A stretch of 45,536 bases of DNA. Source: Planctomycetota bacterium (GTDB lineage Bacteria > Planctomycetota > Brocadiia > Brocadiales > Brocadiaceae). This document shows, one piece after another, positions 13,587 through 45,197 of the stretch (positions are counted from its first letter, which is position 1; every line of letters starts with the position of its first letter). The notes beneath the pieces are model-generated. The model was given only the letters and a program-made list of their open reading frames with translations. It did not search any database and was not told where the DNA came from. The stretch is from assembly GCA_016873165.1 (NCBI GenBank), contig VGXV01000029.1, positions 1-45,536 on the forward strand. The letters are read 5' to 3'. The position numbers were made by a program, and so were the translations under genes.

Positions 13587-13703
13587 TTGTTAAAAGTTGC
13601 CAAATACCTAATTTAACTATCCTTTTTAAAGAAAAGCACGTATACTTTATACAATTTTCCCGGCCAAATATTAAAAAAATATTCCCATAAAAAGAGGTTG
13701 TCT

Positions 13704-15008
13704 ATGCTTAAAAAACGATTTCCTGTTGCTGTTTTTTCTTTGTCTCTCTTATTTATTGTTTTTCATTTGCCGGTAAATCTTCTTTCGGTAACCTATGGGC
13801 AGGTCCCGTCTCCCCGTCAGAATCCGACAAGACCTCCCCTGCCAGGGATAACAGTAACGCCACAGCCGGAGGCAACACCTATTCCCGTTAATCCAATGTT
13901 ATCAGCGGGAGGCTATCATAGTCTTGCGCTGGATTCAACCGGTTCCGTCTGGAGTTGGGGGAAAAATACACAAGGCCAATTAGGAAGATCCGATGATAAT
14001 GATAAACCCGGCAAGGTCATAGTGGAAGATGAAGAAGTTGTTTTTGCATCAGTTGCAGCAGGAGAAAATCATAGCCTTGCGCTAAGCTCGTCAGGAGAAG
14101 TATGGGCATGGGGGGAAAACGACGATGGACAACTCGGGGACAATTCAACAAATGAAAGCGATACTCCTCTTAAAATAGACTCTTTTTATTTTGAACCCAC
14201 AGACGAAAATGATACCGTTATTGCAACAGCAATTGCCGCAGGAAAGAACCACAGCCTCGCATTGTTACCGGATGGCAGCGTTTACGCATGGGGAAGTAAC
14301 GAAAACGGGCAGTTGGGCCAAAGTTTCTTAACAGAAAGTTTAATACCTCTGAAAGTAGAAGAACTTTCCGACACGGTTATAGTTGCCATTGCGGCAGGAG
14401 ATGACCACAGCCTTGCATTATCGGAAGACGGAGAAGTTTACGCCTGGGGCAGCAACAAAAAAGGACAGTTGGGAGACGAAAGTATCTCCGATATCAGCCA
14501 TACCCCTGTAAGCATAGAAGAATTGGAAGAAATACAATCTATTGCGGCAGGAGGCACATTTAACCTTGCGCTGGATAATGATGGCAACGTGTGGGCATGG
14601 GGCAACAATGAGCTTGGGCAAGCGGGAAACAGCAGCGGAGGCATACTAAATGAACCGGCCCAAATCGTTAATCTATCAACCATTGACAAAATAGCAGCGG
14701 GAGAATCTCACAGTTTAGCAATAAAATCGGAAACAATATACGCATGGGGCAACGGCAAAGACGGACAGTTGGGAATCGGTTTGAAACTCACTACCAGCAT
14801 ACCTCAGAAATTATCGAAACCCAGAGAAGCAATGGGAATTGCAGGCGGGAAATTGCACAGTCTTGCCCTGGACGCAAACGGAGAAGTTTGGGCATGGGGA
14901 AATAACAGCTATGGCCAATTGGGTATCCAAAATGAGAAAACGAATTTAAAGCCCTCTAAAATCAAAACAGATGTGGACGGCAATGCCTTTCGCTTGTTTG
15001 ATGAATAA
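13704..15008 (+). CDS. Secreted RCC1-repeat beta-propeller protein
   Basis: 434 residues from the ATG at 13704, which has an AAAGAGG Shine-Dalgarno. A signal peptide is followed by a proline-rich linker (about 35-70; PTRPPLPG, PIPVNP). Then come seven RCC1 units, each with the signature 'AAG..HSLAL...G.V(W/Y)AWG.N..GQLG' (for example VWSWGKNTQGQLG, VYAWGSNENGQLG, VWAWGNNSYGQLG). Seven repeats are the number needed for one closed seven-bladed propeller. In bacteria such exported RCC1 propellers probably mediate protein or surface contacts; no enzymatic motif is present. There are few Cys residues and many acidic ones, consistent with an extracytoplasmic location. It may belong to the upstream sigma-factor locus. 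Confidence 0.88.
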   Translation: MLKKRFPVAVFSLSLLFIVFHLPVNLLSVTYGQVPSPRQNPTRPPLPGITVTPQPEATPIPVNPMLSAGGYHSLALDSTGSVWSWGKNTQGQLGRSDDNDKPGKVIVEDEEVVFASVAAGENHSLALSSSGEVWAWGENDDGQLGDNSTNESDTPLKIDSFYFEPTDENDTVIATAIAAGKNHSLALLPDGSVYAWGSNENGQLGQSFLTESLIPLKVEELSDTVIVAIAAGDDHSLALSEDGEVYAWGSNKKGQLGDESISDISHTPVSIEELEEIQSIAAGGTFNLALDNDGNVWAWGNNELGQAGNSSGGILNEPAQIVNLSTIDKIAAGESHSLAIKSETIYAWGNGKDGQLGIGLKLTTSIPQKLSKPREAMGIAGGKLHSLALDANGEVWAWGNNSYGQLGIQNEKTNLKPSKIKTDVDGNAFRLFDE

Positions 15009-17648: not shown

Positions 17649-17665
17649 GCCAAATGAAATTTGGC
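17649..17665 (+). promoter_or_regulatory. Leader hairpin just upstream of the RRM gene
   Basis: GCCAAAT-GAA-ATTTGGC is a perfect 7-bp stem with a 3-nt loop, ending 15 nt before the ribosome binding site region of the RRM gene. It could modulate mRNA stability or translation, or be bound by the protein itself. Confidence 0.45.
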
Positions 17666-17693
17666 ATCAATACTCAAAAGAAAGGACACAAAT

Positions 17694-18044
17694 ATGAATA
17701 TTTACGCTGGCAACTTAGCACAAAAAACTACCGAAGATGAATTGAGGCAGGTCTTTGAGGAGTTTGGGCAGGTCACGTCAGTAACAATTATCAAGGATAA
17801 ATTCAGCGGAGAGTCCAGGGGATTTGGATTTGTGGAAATGCCCTCAAGGACAGAGGCACAGGCTGCGCTTAACAGTCTCAACGGAAGAGATTTAAACGGA
17901 AGGGTTTTGAATGTTAATGAGGCGCTTCCGCGTTCGGACGACCGCAAGCGAAGTGGTGGTGGAAGAAGCAGCGGAGGGAGAAGCGGCGGTGGTAGTGGAA
18001 GAAGCGGCGGTGGCGGAAAGCGAGGGGGAGGAAGACCCTGGTAA
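17694..18044 (+). CDS. RRM-type RNA-binding protein with Gly/Arg/Ser-rich tail
   Basis: 116 residues from the ATG at 17694 (AAAGGA Shine-Dalgarno), beginning MNIYAGNLAQKTTEDELRQVF. One RNA recognition motif spans about 1-80 with both ribonucleoprotein signatures: RNP2 IYAGNL (3-8) and RNP1 SRGFGFVEM (about 43-51). The tail (about 83-116) is almost entirely Gly, Ser and Arg, giving a disordered, basic RNA-binding extension. This is the layout of cyanobacterial Rbp and other bacterial cold-responsive single-RRM proteins. It probably binds RNA non-specifically as a chaperone in the cytoplasm. The long leader with a hairpin fits post-transcriptional control. An 11-codon upstream extension to 17661 is possible but lacks a ribosome binding site. 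Confidence 0.92.
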   Translation: MNIYAGNLAQKTTEDELRQVFEEFGQVTSVTIIKDKFSGESRGFGFVEMPSRTEAQAALNSLNGRDLNGRVLNVNEALPRSDDRKRSGGGRSSGGRSGGGSGRSGGGGKRGGGRPW

Positions 18045-18165: not shown

Positions 18166-18606
18166 TTATTTCAGATTCCAAAGTGGTAATCCGGTCTCCT
18201 GATCAAAATCTCTTTTAAACTCCTGACCGTCAAACGCTTGGATTAAGACTTCACAGGCAAATACGATTGTTCCCGGAGCAAGATGTCCGCCATGTGCGTT
18301 TCCTTTTTCATCGGATAGCGTTATATGCGCGTGAACAACGGGTTTGTTCTCTTTCAACGAAATATTCCCGATCAGGCAGGTTATTTCCATTGGTTTGTCT
18401 ATGGTAAAAAACGCATATTCGCGTACCTGCTGGTGATAATAACCCAAGCGCGCCTTCTTTATGGCCCCCAGTGCTTCCACCTTTCCCAACGAAATACTGC
18501 TATTCCTGCATATTTCGGTAATTTCTTCCAACAAGTCTGAATTATGAGAAAGTTTGCCCATAATAATTTTTCCGGATTTTAATTCCTTCACTATTGCCAT
18601 TTTCAT
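18166..18606 (-). CDS. PPC/DUF296-domain protein
   Basis: 146 residues forming one PPC (plant and prokaryote conserved, DUF296) domain: LKSGKIIMGKLSHNSDLLEEITEICRNSSISLGKVEALGAI, LLGYYHQQ-like middle and the hallmark VVHAHITLSDEKGNAHGGHLAPGTIVFACEVLI near 95-130. In plants the domain sits on AT-hook proteins; bacterial single-domain members form trimers of unclear function, and the histidines of the HxH...HGGH motif could bind metal. There is no AT-hook here, so DNA binding is not implied. The gene stands alone between the RRM gene and an inverted-repeat element. Confidence 0.85.
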   Translation of the reverse strand: MKMAIVKELKSGKIIMGKLSHNSDLLEEITEICRNSSISLGKVEALGAIKKARLGYYHQQVREYAFFTIDKPMEITCLIGNISLKENKPVVHAHITLSDEKGNAHGGHLAPGTIVFACEVLIQAFDGQEFKRDFDQETGLPLWNLK

Positions 18607-18767: not shown

Positions 18768-20309
18768 TTAATAAGTATTTATTTGGGGCGAAGCGATAAT
18801 ATCTTTGACAACGTCACCCAGCGTTTTGATGTCAGGAATGTGTGCGGAATAATAAGCAGGATTATGTTTATACGATTTCCACTCAACATTTATGCAATCA
18901 TTTAAGTGATCGTACCTGATATTGGCATAATCTGCCGAAGGGTTAAATATAAATATAATCTGCGATAAATCCATTCCCTCTTTTAATAGCTGATCGATCA
19001 GTATTTCCAGACTTTTCGTGTGATTGGCAACAATTGCACAGTGAAGATTATCCAATTGGTATGGATACAAATCGTAGCGTCTTATTTTTTGCAGTATTTT
19101 CTGAAGATAGCTTGTCTTCCGATTGCCTAATAAATATTTAGCAAAAGGATCTTTGTGATAAATGTCATCTACAGGACTGATATGCGCAAAATAACCAAAA
19201 CTTTTGGGATACGAAAAAATGACGGTAGTGCACGGCCCTACCCCTTTCGTTTCCAATATCTCGCCCGACTTTGTCATGGCATACTCGTTAATATCCACCC
19301 TTTTGGTCTTTTGGGCCGGCAATGGATTCCTGTCCCGAACAGAATTCGTGATAGCTGCGTTTGGCAGGCATTCTGCAATTTTTACAAGAAAATATTTTTT
19401 ATATTCCTTATAAATATTCGAAATAACCTCATCTTCATCCATCTCAACAATAATGCACCATGATTGTCCAAACACCTCAAATTGTTCAAATGTGCTGAGC
19501 ACATTTATATCCCTGTAATCTTTTATAATCTTGCTCCCCGTTTTTTGCTGAAGCGCAAGTTTAACCGCCTCGGTGTCTATTTTACGCTTCAAAATAGTGC
19601 TGTCTTCAATAAATCTGGACTCCGTCAGCATCAGTTTATTTTCATTTACAAGATACACCTCCCCGGTTCTTCCAAGATTCTTATGGTCAGACAATATCGT
19701 GTTAACTTTGTTTATCGGAAATTGCAAAACAAACCAGCCCGTAAAATTTTTCTTTTCATATACGGACACAACAAAAAAAGCGGCAGGCTCATCTGACGGA
19801 GGATAAAATTCATAGTTGATAAACTCCATTTCAGGCACTTCCTTAAGATGTCTGGCAAGGGAAGTAGCCGCATACTTCCCGGTAAAAAGATTTGTATGAT
19901 AATCATCTTCCTGTTTTATACTATGAAAGATAAAACCCTTGCTATCCACAAAAAGAATATCATAGAAATCCTTATACTTCGTGACAAAATTCACATCCGC
20001 CTCACACTCCTTATCCTGAATACTCTCCCTATCATCGGTTCCTGAAGCGGCAACCCGATAGTATTTTTTTATCTGATAAAAACAATCAAGCATGCTTTTA
20101 TCAGAAGCAATACCCATTGCTATATTTCTAATTTCAGCAAAATAATTAATTATCTCCTCTTTCTTCACATCTCTTATTTCCCTCAAAAACCGGAAATTAC
20201 GCTCTATAAGGTTATTCCCGGGTATTCTGCTGCATCCGGGATTAACTAATAGAAAAACGAATAACACGATTAATCCGGAATAATTTTTGTATTTCCAAAA
20301 AGATTTCAT
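18768..20309 (-). CDS. Lipoprotein with Cache-type sensor and CheD-like deamidase domain
   Basis: 513 residues. A lipobox (LVNPGC, Cys26) after a hydrophobic signal anchors it on the outer face of a membrane. Residues about 40-295 read as a Cache-type sensor (DFYDILFVDSKGFIFHS, FTGWFVLQFPINKVNTIL, GRTGEVYLVNENKLMLTES, QSWCIIVEMDEDEV), as in chemoreceptors. Residues about 337-475 resemble CheD: VDINEYAMTKSGEILETKGVGPC with Thr354 six residues before Cys360 and, after TTVIFSYPKSFGYFA, His376. This matches the Thr/Cys/His arrangement of CheD glutamine deamidases (Thr21, Cys27, His44 in Thermotoga CheD), one residue shorter in the Cys-His loop. A later helix (TKSLEILIDQLLKEGMDLSQI) also fits. Deamidation outside the cytoplasm would be new; substrate unknown. 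Confidence 0.7.
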   Translation of the reverse strand: MKSFWKYKNYSGLIVLFVFLLVNPGCSRIPGNNLIERNFRFLREIRDVKKEEIINYFAEIRNIAMGIASDKSMLDCFYQIKKYYRVAASGTDDRESIQDKECEADVNFVTKYKDFYDILFVDSKGFIFHSIKQEDDYHTNLFTGKYAATSLARHLKEVPEMEFINYEFYPPSDEPAAFFVVSVYEKKNFTGWFVLQFPINKVNTILSDHKNLGRTGEVYLVNENKLMLTESRFIEDSTILKRKIDTEAVKLALQQKTGSKIIKDYRDINVLSTFEQFEVFGQSWCIIVEMDEDEVISNIYKEYKKYFLVKIAECLPNAAITNSVRDRNPLPAQKTKRVDINEYAMTKSGEILETKGVGPCTTVIFSYPKSFGYFAHISPVDDIYHKDPFAKYLLGNRKTSYLQKILQKIRRYDLYPYQLDNLHCAIVANHTKSLEILIDQLLKEGMDLSQIIFIFNPSADYANIRYDHLNDCINVEWKSYKHNPAYYSAHIPDIKTLGDVVKDIIASPQINTY

Positions 20310-20539
20310 TTTAATACTCTTAAATCATACTCAGAGTGCTTATAAAATGTAAATTTTCGTAACAATTTAGTTTTTTGAAAGCACATTGCCTATAAGCTCT
20401 GTAGGAGCGCTCTGTTTGTAAGGCATGATGCTCCTATCAGTACAAAACGAGTCTGAAAAATATTTCACCGCAGTGTATCTCACTTCGCTGTCTTCGTGTA
20501 AGATGGCATTTTTTATTTTATTTTCAGAAAGTCGTATTG

Positions 20540-22165
20540 TCATTTATCTGATGCCTCCGGATCATGATCATAAAATTTTGTGACCATCTTCAACCTTCTC
20601 ATTTCGTCAGCGGCACGTTCCTTATCTCCCAGCTTTGTGTATAGTTGAATAAGATTGCTGTGAACAATGGGGTTGAAGGGATTCACCCTGTTTGCCAGCA
20701 AAAGATAATCTATCGCCGTTTGATACTCTCCTTTTCTCTGGTACAGTTCGCCTAAGGAAATATATGTGGTGGTGTATTCGGGATAATAATCGAGTGCGGA
20801 CTTCAACACTTCTTCCGCCTTTGAATACTGCGTATCCCTGATATAGGCAATTGCCAGTTTATTCTGAATCTGAGGGGAAATATTTTTTGCCCTCTCAAAC
20901 GCCTTTTCATATTCTATAATAGCCGCGCTATACAATCCTTCGCGCCGCAGAAGGTCTCCCAACATTGCGAATTTTCTTGCGTCTTTTACCTCTATTTCGG
21001 CAACACTTTCAAGATCGTCCACAATCGAGGACGATTCCTTCAATTTCGTCGGAAGTATCCTGATTCCATGAACCCTTTTTAGTTTCTTTTCTTTCAGGTA
21101 TTGCAGCCAATTCTTTTCGAATACATCAAATGGAATCCCGAGAGCAGACGATATTGCGTCTTTCGCGTCCATCCCGCTTTTTATTTCATCGAGTATCGCG
21201 GTAATAAAGGGATATCCTCCCTGATTATGCAAATAGTCAATTGCCGTAAATACCTCCGCAAAGGCAAGGGCGGTATCCTCTCTTTTTTCTAATTTAGCCA
21301 GAGAGGGATGCATTTTCTCGAAGGTGATAAAGTAGTCATTTTCCACCGCCTCTGCCAAAAGACTTTCCAGAGAAACGGGCAATGCGGGAGCATTATCCCC
21401 CAACCATCGTCTTTCCTCATATTTGGCAATCCCTTCATGAAGCCAGACCGGCACGCGGTTGTATGTCTTTTTCATTATCACATAATGTACATATTCATGG
21501 GTAAGGGTATCGAGCCACTCGTATCCCCTCGGCTGCAACCGAGGACTCGTAATAATCACCCGGTTAAATAAACATATTGCAATCGTCCCGGAGGTTTCTA
21601 TCTCTTTCTGCGTCAAAGTGGAAATGGTGCAAAAACTCTCAGCGTCCGGATAGACTTCAACGAGTATTTTCCCCTCAGGAAAATAATTCAGGTCGCTGCC
21701 AATAGCATGATATGCGCTTTCAAGCGTATCAAGTGCGTATTCTGCCAAAATCGCGTCTTTTTCTTCCAGAAACCGAAAGATAAAATGTTCCGACTCGATT
21801 TCCTTAAACTTGCCTGCTGTGCGGTAAATTGTTTGGACAAACTGATAAAATCCCTCTGCCTGCTGAATTACCTCTGGCGCTTTTTGCGCTTTTTTCAAAA
21901 GACCCAGCGCTTCCTCATACCTTCCCTCATAGAAACGTACTTTTCCGGCAAAATAACACACATGTGAATCATCCGGCGCTAATAAAAGCACTTTTTCAGC
22001 GATCTTTTTTGCATCTTCAATCTGCCATGCATTCAAACATTCCTCGCCATACACGATTTCACCCAGAATATCAAAAAATTCATTCGACCGGGCTTTCGCA
22101 ATATTTTCCTGAAAGACAAGGAATAGTATCAGCATCATCATTGTTATTATTGCTTTTCTTTTCAT
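20540..22165 (-). CDS. Exported TPR protein with gluzincin peptidase (peptidase MA-like) domain
   Basis: 541 residues from the ATG at 22165 (GAGGG Shine-Dalgarno; a TTG 15 nt further upstream is also in frame). A signal peptide (about 1-25) is followed by TPR-like helices (about 35-105). The peptidase domain has HEYVH (about 223-227) in LDTLTHEYVHYVIMKK and the third zinc ligand in VPVWLHEGIAKYEER (Glu about 244), the HExxH...E pattern of the MA clan. The C-terminus has three or more TPRs (about 400-510). It is likely a periplasmic protease or degenerate scaffold; the active site looks intact. It starts only 7 nt after the stop of the 1138-residue DUF4175 gene, so the two are co-transcribed and probably work together. 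Confidence 0.8.
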   Translation of the reverse strand: MKRKAIITMMMLILFLVFQENIAKARSNEFFDILGEIVYGEECLNAWQIEDAKKIAEKVLLLAPDDSHVCYFAGKVRFYEGRYEEALGLLKKAQKAPEVIQQAEGFYQFVQTIYRTAGKFKEIESEHFIFRFLEEKDAILAEYALDTLESAYHAIGSDLNYFPEGKILVEVYPDAESFCTISTLTQKEIETSGTIAICLFNRVIITSPRLQPRGYEWLDTLTHEYVHYVIMKKTYNRVPVWLHEGIAKYEERRWLGDNAPALPVSLESLLAEAVENDYFITFEKMHPSLAKLEKREDTALAFAEVFTAIDYLHNQGGYPFITAILDEIKSGMDAKDAISSALGIPFDVFEKNWLQYLKEKKLKRVHGIRILPTKLKESSSIVDDLESVAEIEVKDARKFAMLGDLLRREGLYSAAIIEYEKAFERAKNISPQIQNKLAIAYIRDTQYSKAEEVLKSALDYYPEYTTTYISLGELYQRKGEYQTAIDYLLLANRVNPFNPIVHSNLIQLYTKLGDKERAADEMRRLKMVTKFYDHDPEASDK

Positions 22166-43511: not shown

Positions 43512-43568
43512 AAATTAGAATTAAAATTTCTCTTACTAAAAATGTTGACCATACGGAGGTGTTTTGAA

Positions 43569-45197
43569 ATGAAAAAGATATTATTGGGCATAGGTATGTT
43601 TACTATGATGCTGCCCAGCATAGCGGGATGGATTCCGGGGCAGTCAGGCACTCTCTGGGCCTCTGAGCAGGCAACAGAAGAAATTCCGCCACCGGATTTG
43701 TATACAGGCATGCCAGACTGGTATAAAGCGGTATTTAAGGATAATGTCGGGATGAGCGAAGGTTCCGGACCATTTACCAAGTATTTTAAACCCCAAATAC
43801 TTGATATGTACTGGCAGCCTAACAGGCATTATGTGCCAATGGAAAATTTGGATCACTCTATTTTTATTGAACAGGAGAGAAGGGATTTGTGCGTAATATG
43901 TCACGAACAAGCTACTCCAGGCATAGTTGCGGATTGGAGAAGCTCCGGTCATAAACATCCAAAGAGCACTCCTTATCTTTCGAGCAGAACCGCACAGATA
44001 GAAAAAAACATTGGCAGAGTGTTAAACGAAGTTCACTGCTTTGATTGCCACGCCGACACAGAAAAGAAGCAAATAAGGATGCCTACCGGCGAAGTATGCG
44101 GCGGATGCCATAGACAACAGTTCGATGATTTCCTCAGAGAAAGGGAAATGGGACGTCCCAACCATATACAATCATGGGAAGCAAATACCATAGTACCTTG
44201 GTATGCTGAAGCGGCGCGAAGAGGATATTTATACGGACAGCACGGTTGCGATATGTGCCACTCAGGAGCTGAAAAGTGCGATGTCTGTCATACCAGACAC
44301 AAGTTCAGCGCAGTAGAAGGAAGACAGCCGGAAGCCTGTATGACATGCCATATGGGTCCTGATCATCCGGATGCGGAATCTTACGGCGAATCAAAACATG
44401 GTGTTATCTATGAAAAAGAAGAAGAACACTTCGATTTCACGAAACCACTTGTTGAAGTTCGTCCCGGAAAGGATTATCGTACACCGACATGTCAATTCTG
44501 CCATATGTATGAAAAACACGGCAGGTTTATTCACAACCCTGTTATGAAGGGCATTTGGCGTATGGGTACTGTGCCGCCGTCCAATATTGAATATACATCC
44601 TCCTTGAAGGACTATCCGTACGGAATAAAATTGATCCCGGATAAAATTGATATTTATTCCGAAGAAAATGTCGCAAAAAGGTCATATTGGCTGGAGGTTT
44701 GTGCAAATTGCCACAGCGACAGGTTTGCGGATACTTACCTGAAATCACTGGATCAATTCATGTTCCAGGCGCATACGCTTGCTGATCAAGCGCAAAAGGT
44801 TGTTGAGGATCTGATTGCGGATGGAATATTGTATCCTGATGCGGCCAACCGTGATCCTTTCCCGTTAAGCGACGGAATTGTGAAAGAGCTTAATGCGGAT
44901 TTCCTTGGCGAGCCGGTTTATAACGCCTTCAAGACGTTAAATGGCAAATTCCCGGTTGTTGGACCAATCCTGGGCGTTTATGGTATGTTCTTACAGTCAC
45001 AGGATAATCCTTCTCACATAGAGAACGAATACAACAGATTATGGTTCTGGTACAAACTACAGGGATATAAAGGCACGGCACACGCACAGCAGGACGTTTC
45101 CTGGTGGTGGGGACAAGCTCCTATGATGATGTCAATGACAAGGATTCAGTCTGAAGCTGCAAGGTTAAGAAGAGAAGCCGCTCTTGAGAAAAAATAA
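43569..45197 (+). CDS. Octaheme hydroxylamine-oxidoreductase-like reductase (HAOr)
   Basis: 542 residues from the ATG at 43569, which has an ACGGAGG Shine-Dalgarno; a signal peptide ends near LWA (31). Eight CXXCH heme sites are present: CVICH 108, CFDCH 157, CGGCH 177, CDMCH 227, CDVCH 237, CMTCH 257, CQFCH 308 and CANCH 378, the spacing of the HAO/HDH family. Oxidative HAOs have a C-terminal tyrosine that cross-links to the catalytic heme. At the place where I recall it (PDYTHWHG-like), this protein reads QQDVSWWWG, with Val510 instead of Tyr. That points to a reductive, non-cross-linked HAO, as described for KsHAOr, whose physiological role may be nitrite reduction. There is no C-terminal TM. 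It is the last gene before a strong terminator. Confidence 0.9.
   Translation: MKKILLGIGMFTMMLPSIAGWIPGQSGTLWASEQATEEIPPPDLYTGMPDWYKAVFKDNVGMSEGSGPFTKYFKPQILDMYWQPNRHYVPMENLDHSIFIEQERRDLCVICHEQATPGIVADWRSSGHKHPKSTPYLSSRTAQIEKNIGRVLNEVHCFDCHADTEKKQIRMPTGEVCGGCHRQQFDDFLREREMGRPNHIQSWEANTIVPWYAEAARRGYLYGQHGCDMCHSGAEKCDVCHTRHKFSAVEGRQPEACMTCHMGPDHPDAESYGESKHGVIYEKEEEHFDFTKPLVEVRPGKDYRTPTCQFCHMYEKHGRFIHNPVMKGIWRMGTVPPSNIEYTSSLKDYPYGIKLIPDKIDIYSEENVAKRSYWLEVCANCHSDRFADTYLKSLDQFMFQAHTLADQAQKVVEDLIADGILYPDAANRDPFPLSDGIVKELNADFLGEPVYNAFKTLNGKFPVVGPILGVYGMFLQSQDNPSHIENEYNRLWFWYKLQGYKGTAHAQQDVSWWWGQAPMMMSMTRIQSEAARLRREAALEKK

Follow-up and report, generated by a model that had tools for sequence, protein, structure and literature searches.

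CheD is a small cytoplasmic protein that acts on chemoreceptors as a glutamine deamidase. YfiH/PgeF (DUF152), which has the same superfamily fold, edits a peptidoglycan precursor in the cytoplasm. Known deamidases with the CheD fold are intracellular, or are toxins acting inside target cells. Human N-terminal asparagine amidohydrolase (NTAN1) shares the CNF1/YfiH-like fold with CheD, belongs to the N-degron pathway, takes an N-terminal Asn as its substrate and has an appended C-terminal specificity region. Double Cache (dCache_1) receptors, which include chemoreceptors, histidine kinases and diguanylate cyclases, have a second transmembrane helix, which carries the signal to an output domain in the cytoplasm. 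The catalytic triad consists of Cys27, His44 and Thr21 in CheD of T. maritima, and of Cys75, His92 and Ser69 in NTAN1 (PMC7022378). In NTAN1, deamidation is abolished by the substitutions C75A and H92A and lowered about 5-fold by S69A, while YfiH/PgeF carries a zinc at its active site (PMC7022378).

Here, we describe a gene from an anammox bacterium whose product is predicted to combine a double Cache sensor with a CheD-fold domain outside the cytoplasm. The gene lies in a window of 45,536 nucleotides (the complete contig VGXV01000029.1, assembly GCA_016873165.1), which is the whole stretch of DNA that was analysed. The predicted domain shares with CheD the overall fold, the Thr/Cys/His triad and the spacing between Thr and Cys, and its first strands and hairpin align with CheD by sequence. 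It differs from CheD in its predicted export, its fusion to a Cache domain, a distance from Cys to His that is one residue shorter, and the lack of both the GGA motif and a match to Pfam CheD. NTAN1 has a Ser/Cys/His triad with the same six-residue spacing but, unlike our protein, no sensor domain. Structural similarity to YfiH/PgeF is lower. The sensor domain is shared with the dCache_1 receptors, whereas our protein has no second helix and its output domain appears to lie on the sensor side of the membrane. Fusions of CheD with CheR or with a response regulator, found in Planctomycetota, are likewise multi-domain proteins with a CheD fold from the same phylum; in these, however, CheD is joined to chemotaxis domains of the cytoplasm, and no export signal was visible.

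Gene, host and distribution

The open reading frame is a genuine gene, and its host is an anammox bacterium from the same genus as Candidatus Kuenenia hertensis (source assembly of 191 contigs). Its features are listed in Table 1.

Table 1. Predicted features of the Cache-CheD-fold protein, with their positions in the window.
Feature	Residues	Position	Strand	Basis
Cache-CheD-fold protein (P0001), 513 aa	1-513	18768..20309	(-)	ORF, ATG start
N-terminal export signal / membrane anchor (predicted), ending in atypical lipobox VNPGC (Cys26)	1-26	20232..20309	(-)	hydropathy
Double Cache (dCache) sensor domain	33-302	19404..20213	(-)	Pfam dCache_1 and fold match
Low-confidence linker	314-333	19311..19370	(-)	pLDDT ~45-57, full-length model
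Predicted CheD-fold (CNF1/YfiH-like cysteine hydrolase) domain	332-489	18843..19316	(-)	Foldseek, VIA
Thr354, aligned with Thr21 of T. maritima CheD	354	19248..19250	(-)	alignment, conservation
Cys360, at the position of catalytic Cys27 of CheD in the alignment; no other Cys invariant in the family	360	19230..19232	(-)	alignment, conservation
His376, aligned with catalytic His44 of CheD	376	19182..19184	(-)	alignment, conservation
His430, invariant family-specific residue in A-[TN]-H-x2-S stretch	430	19020..19022	(-)	conservation

A search for homologues with the same domain order, as the initial annotation had proposed, yielded 14 family proteins, 13 of them distinct, which diverge to ~24% identity. 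The architecture was present in 13 of the 75 genomes of the class, all from one order (around Kuenenia), and in none outside that order among 392 genomes drawn from the phylum. No distant homologues were found in plasmids, and a scan of genome contigs extended to close relatives only.

Evidence for a CheD fold

When the whole protein was compared with the PDB by sequence, the only match was CheD of T. maritima (2f9z_C), over residues 335-399 and with a weak E-value of 0.24. In this match Thr354, Cys360 and His376 aligned with Thr, Cys and His of CheD, respectively. A profile built from 11 homologues again placed 2f9z_C first (E = 0.077). We then compared the family with a canonical CheD profile (30 CheD sequences from the same order) using hhalign. 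The score was 33.4; none of the 150 column-shuffled controls exceeded 23.4, and a reversed control scored 13.2. The local alignment was used; the global alignment (-glob) misaligned the CheD-fold domain beyond the triad. When the CheD profile was run against all open reading frames of 14 neighbourhoods, the top ten hits all belonged to the Cache-CheD family, and no other protein ranked above them.

The domain was also modelled by itself with AlphaFold from the alignment of its own family (A1), which contained no CheD sequence. The model had a pLDDT of 77.1 and a pTM of 0.78. Foldseek ranked CheD (2f9z_C) first with an E-value of 3.3e-8, followed by NTAN1, CNF-type catalytic domains and YfiH. 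According to VIA-align, the model matched CheD with a Z-score of 13.2 over 138 of 154 residues (rmsd 3.0 Å), NTAN1 (6a0e) with a Z-score of 11.0, and YfiH-type proteins with Z-scores of about 7-9. The CheD fold was also matched by the full-length model (E = 7e-7).

Hence, the evidence from sequence alone is suggestive, and that from the predicted structures is strong. The model places the domain in the CNF1/YfiH-like cysteine-hydrolase fold, with CheD as its nearest relative in the PDB. The initial annotation had aligned this part of the protein with CheD, and the PDB and profile matches, the shuffle-controlled profile comparison and the family-only model all point in the same direction. The modelled limits of the domain are close to the residues 320-513 proposed at that stage.

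The Thr/Cys/His triad

The triad was invariant in all 13 distinct homologues, with a constant T-x5-C-x15-H spacing (6 and 16 residues). A looser pattern, T-x5-C-x14..17-H, matched just two of the 143 other proteins of the neighbourhoods. Since no cysteine other than Cys360 is invariant in the family, a conserved structural disulfide is unlikely and a chemical role is favoured.

In the domain model, Cys360 (model residue 65) immediately precedes strand 66-72, while His376 (model residue 81) lies in the hairpin partner strand 76-82. As modelled, this placement relative to the strands is what one would expect from CheD. The structural alignment begins with model residue 37 on residue -1 of 2f9z_C, an offset of 38, so that model residues 59 and 65 would fall on Thr21 and Cys27 if there is no intervening gap. 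Alignment and conservation thus give good support to Thr354, Cys360 and His376 as a predicted CheD-type triad, with the six-residue spacing that the initial annotation had noted between Thr354 and Cys360. That annotation had also allowed that Cys360 might be a plain structural residue, which the family-only fold search, the profile comparison and the full conservation contradict.

Departures from CheD proper

Pfam CheD (PF03975) did not match the protein at E-values up to 1, nor any part of the genome at E-values up to 10, and an NCBIfam scan of the protein gave no match to CheD. The GGA motif occurred in none of the 14 family proteins (13 distinct), in contrast to all 30 canonical CheD sequences of relatives. 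According to the alignment there, the stretch around the invariant His430 would lie near the expected position of this motif. The absence of GGA from the whole family implies a substrate pocket different from that of CheD. With neither the motif nor a Pfam match, 'CheD-fold cysteine hydrolase' is a safer label than 'CheD'. The cytoplasmic location of the CheD family is not predicted here either, given an N-terminal export signal and no second transmembrane segment.

Ordinary CheD was found in 110 of the 392 genomes of the phylum. Ten CheD matches in long open frames were retrieved, from which six proteins were recovered. Those with a recognisable partner were, as judged by eye, fusions to regions resembling chemotaxis methyltransferases or response regulators, and neither a Cache domain nor an export signal was visible in any of the six. 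Canonical CheD was not found in the source genome, which has about ten chemoreceptor signalling domains, and was present in both other genomes of the genus; its absence reflects either an assembly gap or a loss.

Sensor domain, export and topology

Pfam dCache_1 (PF02743) matched residues 50-288 with an E-value of 2.4e-14 and a score of 53.9 bits, above the curated cut-off of 45. In the full-length AlphaFold model (mean pLDDT 76.5), the Cache part matched 2p7j_A with a VIA Z-score of 18.3 (233 residues) and 3lid with a Z-score of 18.1. A Cache-like sensor had been placed at about residues 40-295, and the modelled limits deviate little from it. The low confidence of the linker between the two domains points to loose tethering rather than rigid coupling.

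The N-terminus begins with a short segment of positive charge, and a hydrophobic stretch then leads up to Cys26. Hydropathy peaked at residue 11 (1.73). There was no second transmembrane segment, as hydropathy did not exceed 1.04 past residue 60. Two Cache paralogues from the same genome have a second hydrophobic helix directly after the Cache domain (hydropathy 2.56 and 2.78). One N-terminal anchor without a second transmembrane helix would leave both domains on one side of the membrane, the outer one. The predicted export of the Cache and CheD-fold domains, with which the initial annotation agrees, is well supported by the hydrophobic N-terminal segment, the lack of a second helix and the extracytoplasmic type of the Cache domain.

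Whether the protein is a lipoprotein was assessed with the lipobox pattern [LIVMFWSTAG]2-LIVMFYSTAGCQ-[AGS]-C (PROSITE PS00013). Its VNPGC sequence does not match this strict pattern. Three homologues from another genus (L013, L014 and L020) do match, with VLFGC or ILFGC, whereas in families f4 and f5 of the order a plain membrane anchor takes the place of the lipobox. Lipidation is uncertain, because the lipobox is atypical here, canonical in one branch of homologues and replaced by an anchor in another. Hence, of the earlier proposal of a lipobox at Cys26, the cysteine after a hydrophobic stretch stands and has canonical counterparts in homologues, while the motif of this protein itself is atypical. 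As judged from their N-termini, membrane attachment appears to be conserved across the homologues, and lipidation in a part of them only.

Gene neighbourhood

The DUF4175 and TPR/peptidase-like neighbours of the gene are conserved in the genus only, and a radical SAM neighbour resembling spore photoproduct lyase occurs only in another genus of the same family (f1). In family f4, a gene for a membrane-anchored cytochrome c'-like protein with a CxxCH motif adjoins the Cache-CheD gene in five of the six genomes. In two of these five, a gene for an AhpC/TSA protein with a lipobox-like N-terminus (exported type) lies on the other side. No redox neighbours were present in family f1. Since neighbours differ between genera and families, the gene has no family-wide partner. 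The context in f4 fits an extracytoplasmic and perhaps redox-related role, which is not a family-wide link. The cytochrome c'-like protein was considered as an obligate partner and rejected; it is widespread in genomes without the Cache-CheD gene.

At two loci (L091:5379-8400 on the plus strand and L088:6997-10085 on the minus strand), the Cache-CheD gene is flanked by the genes for AhpC/TSA and for the cytochrome c'-like protein, whose CxxCH lies close to the C-terminus, and all three genes share one strand.

Proposed function and alternatives

We consider it probable, with some reserve, that the protein is a Cache-coupled extracytoplasmic cysteine amidohydrolase. It would be exported and held at the membrane by its N-terminus, and its periplasm-facing double Cache domain would bind a small ligand. 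On an envelope protein or peptide, the CheD-fold domain would most likely hydrolyse the side-chain amide of Gln or Asn, or an amide of a similar kind. When the Cache domain binds its ligand, this may change how active or how accessible the CheD-fold domain is, or may place the enzyme near its substrate. Catalysis, by analogy with the family, would rely on a Cys thiolate activated by His. Control by a ligand, and the nature of ligand and substrate, we only infer. Several observations count against an amidohydrolase: Pfam CheD does not match, GGA is lost, the linker is of low confidence and the gene neighbourhood is not conserved across the family. A free catalytic cysteine outside the cytoplasm would also need protection from oxidation.

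A ligand-gated protein deamidase outside the cytoplasm is a more tentative proposal; here, the Cache domain would act as the switch of a CheD-fold enzyme, whose targets would be Gln or Asn residues of envelope proteins. If true, it would be a form of one-protein signalling, in which the signal is written as a permanent modification of the envelope and not passed across the membrane.

Among the alternatives, it is unlikely, though the best of them, that the CheD-fold domain is a non-catalytic module that binds a partner, with Cys, His and Thr kept for structure or binding. The loss of GGA and the lack of a Pfam match would suit such a module, but the triad is invariant and its spacing fixed among proteins that diverge to ~24% identity, whereas in pseudoenzymes one or more of the catalytic residues have usually been lost.

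We regard it as improbable that Cys360 is a redox or nitrosative sensor, in which oxidation or nitrosylation of a periplasmic thiol is read together with the Cache signal. A single invariant and extracytoplasmic cysteine, and the neighbours of the f4 genes, would fit this role. However, His376 and Thr354 are no less strictly conserved than Cys360, which is what a hydrolase triad demands. The lack of redox neighbours in f1 and the wide occurrence of the cytochrome c'-like protein without this gene also speak against a redox sensor.

Similarly low odds apply to an exported domain that acts on a small molecule or a peptidoglycan amide rather than a protein, as in YfiH/PgeF. The envelope location and the presence of YfiH/PgeF among the fold neighbours speak for it, but CheD and NTAN1, enzymes of protein or peptide side chains, are nearer by VIA Z-score. 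A chance resemblance, with an accidental Thr/Cys/His match and Cys360 as an ordinary structural residue, would explain the weak pairwise sequence scores (E = 0.24 and 0.077) but is very improbable in view of the family-only fold search, the profile comparison above all shuffles and the full conservation.

For the extracytoplasmic amidohydrolase that we favour, both domains are known singly; their combination, compartment and altered pocket are new to us. A literature search, covering few subscription papers, found neither an exported CheD-fold protein nor a CheD of anammox bacteria described in any paper. These results suggest that the exported Cache and CheD-fold protein represents a previously unrecognised type of enzyme for envelope signalling or protein modification. 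If an exported, sensor-coupled member of this fold is confirmed, bacteria may modify their own envelope in a controlled way, by deamidation of glutamine or asparagine, and the output of this Cache protein would at no point cross the membrane. The architecture is confined to anammox bacteria and close relatives, which are of ecological and technical weight and whose envelope signalling is poorly known.

Other observations in the window

No RNA families were found, and promoter- and terminator-like sites occurred little above chance. An open frame of ~58 codons, perhaps what is left of a gene, lies just upstream of the Cache-CheD gene at about 20367-20543 (-) and overlaps the stop codon of the TPR/peptidase gene. 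A PCC/DUF296-domain protein is encoded downstream of the Cache-CheD gene on its strand, at 18166-18606 (-), and a small RNA-binding protein of the RRM type, with a tail rich in glycine, at 17661-18044 (+).

An RCC1-repeat protein with an N-terminal signal-like segment is encoded at 13698-15008 (+). Relatives that are 1363-1413 aa in length contain long internal repeats that are nearly identical, and their genes directly adjoin the Cache-CheD gene in L022 and L084. The first of these loci (G013:C70, WYAU01000076.1), filed under Candidatus Brocadia sp. AMX1, has ~99% DNA identity to the second, which comes from the Kuenenia genus (G001). The same bin also has its own divergent copy of the gene (G013:C25), and the contig is likely a contamination of the bin. 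Finally, positions 43542-45197 (+) encode a multi-haem cytochrome (Pfam Multi-haem_cyto, E = 2.5e-54).
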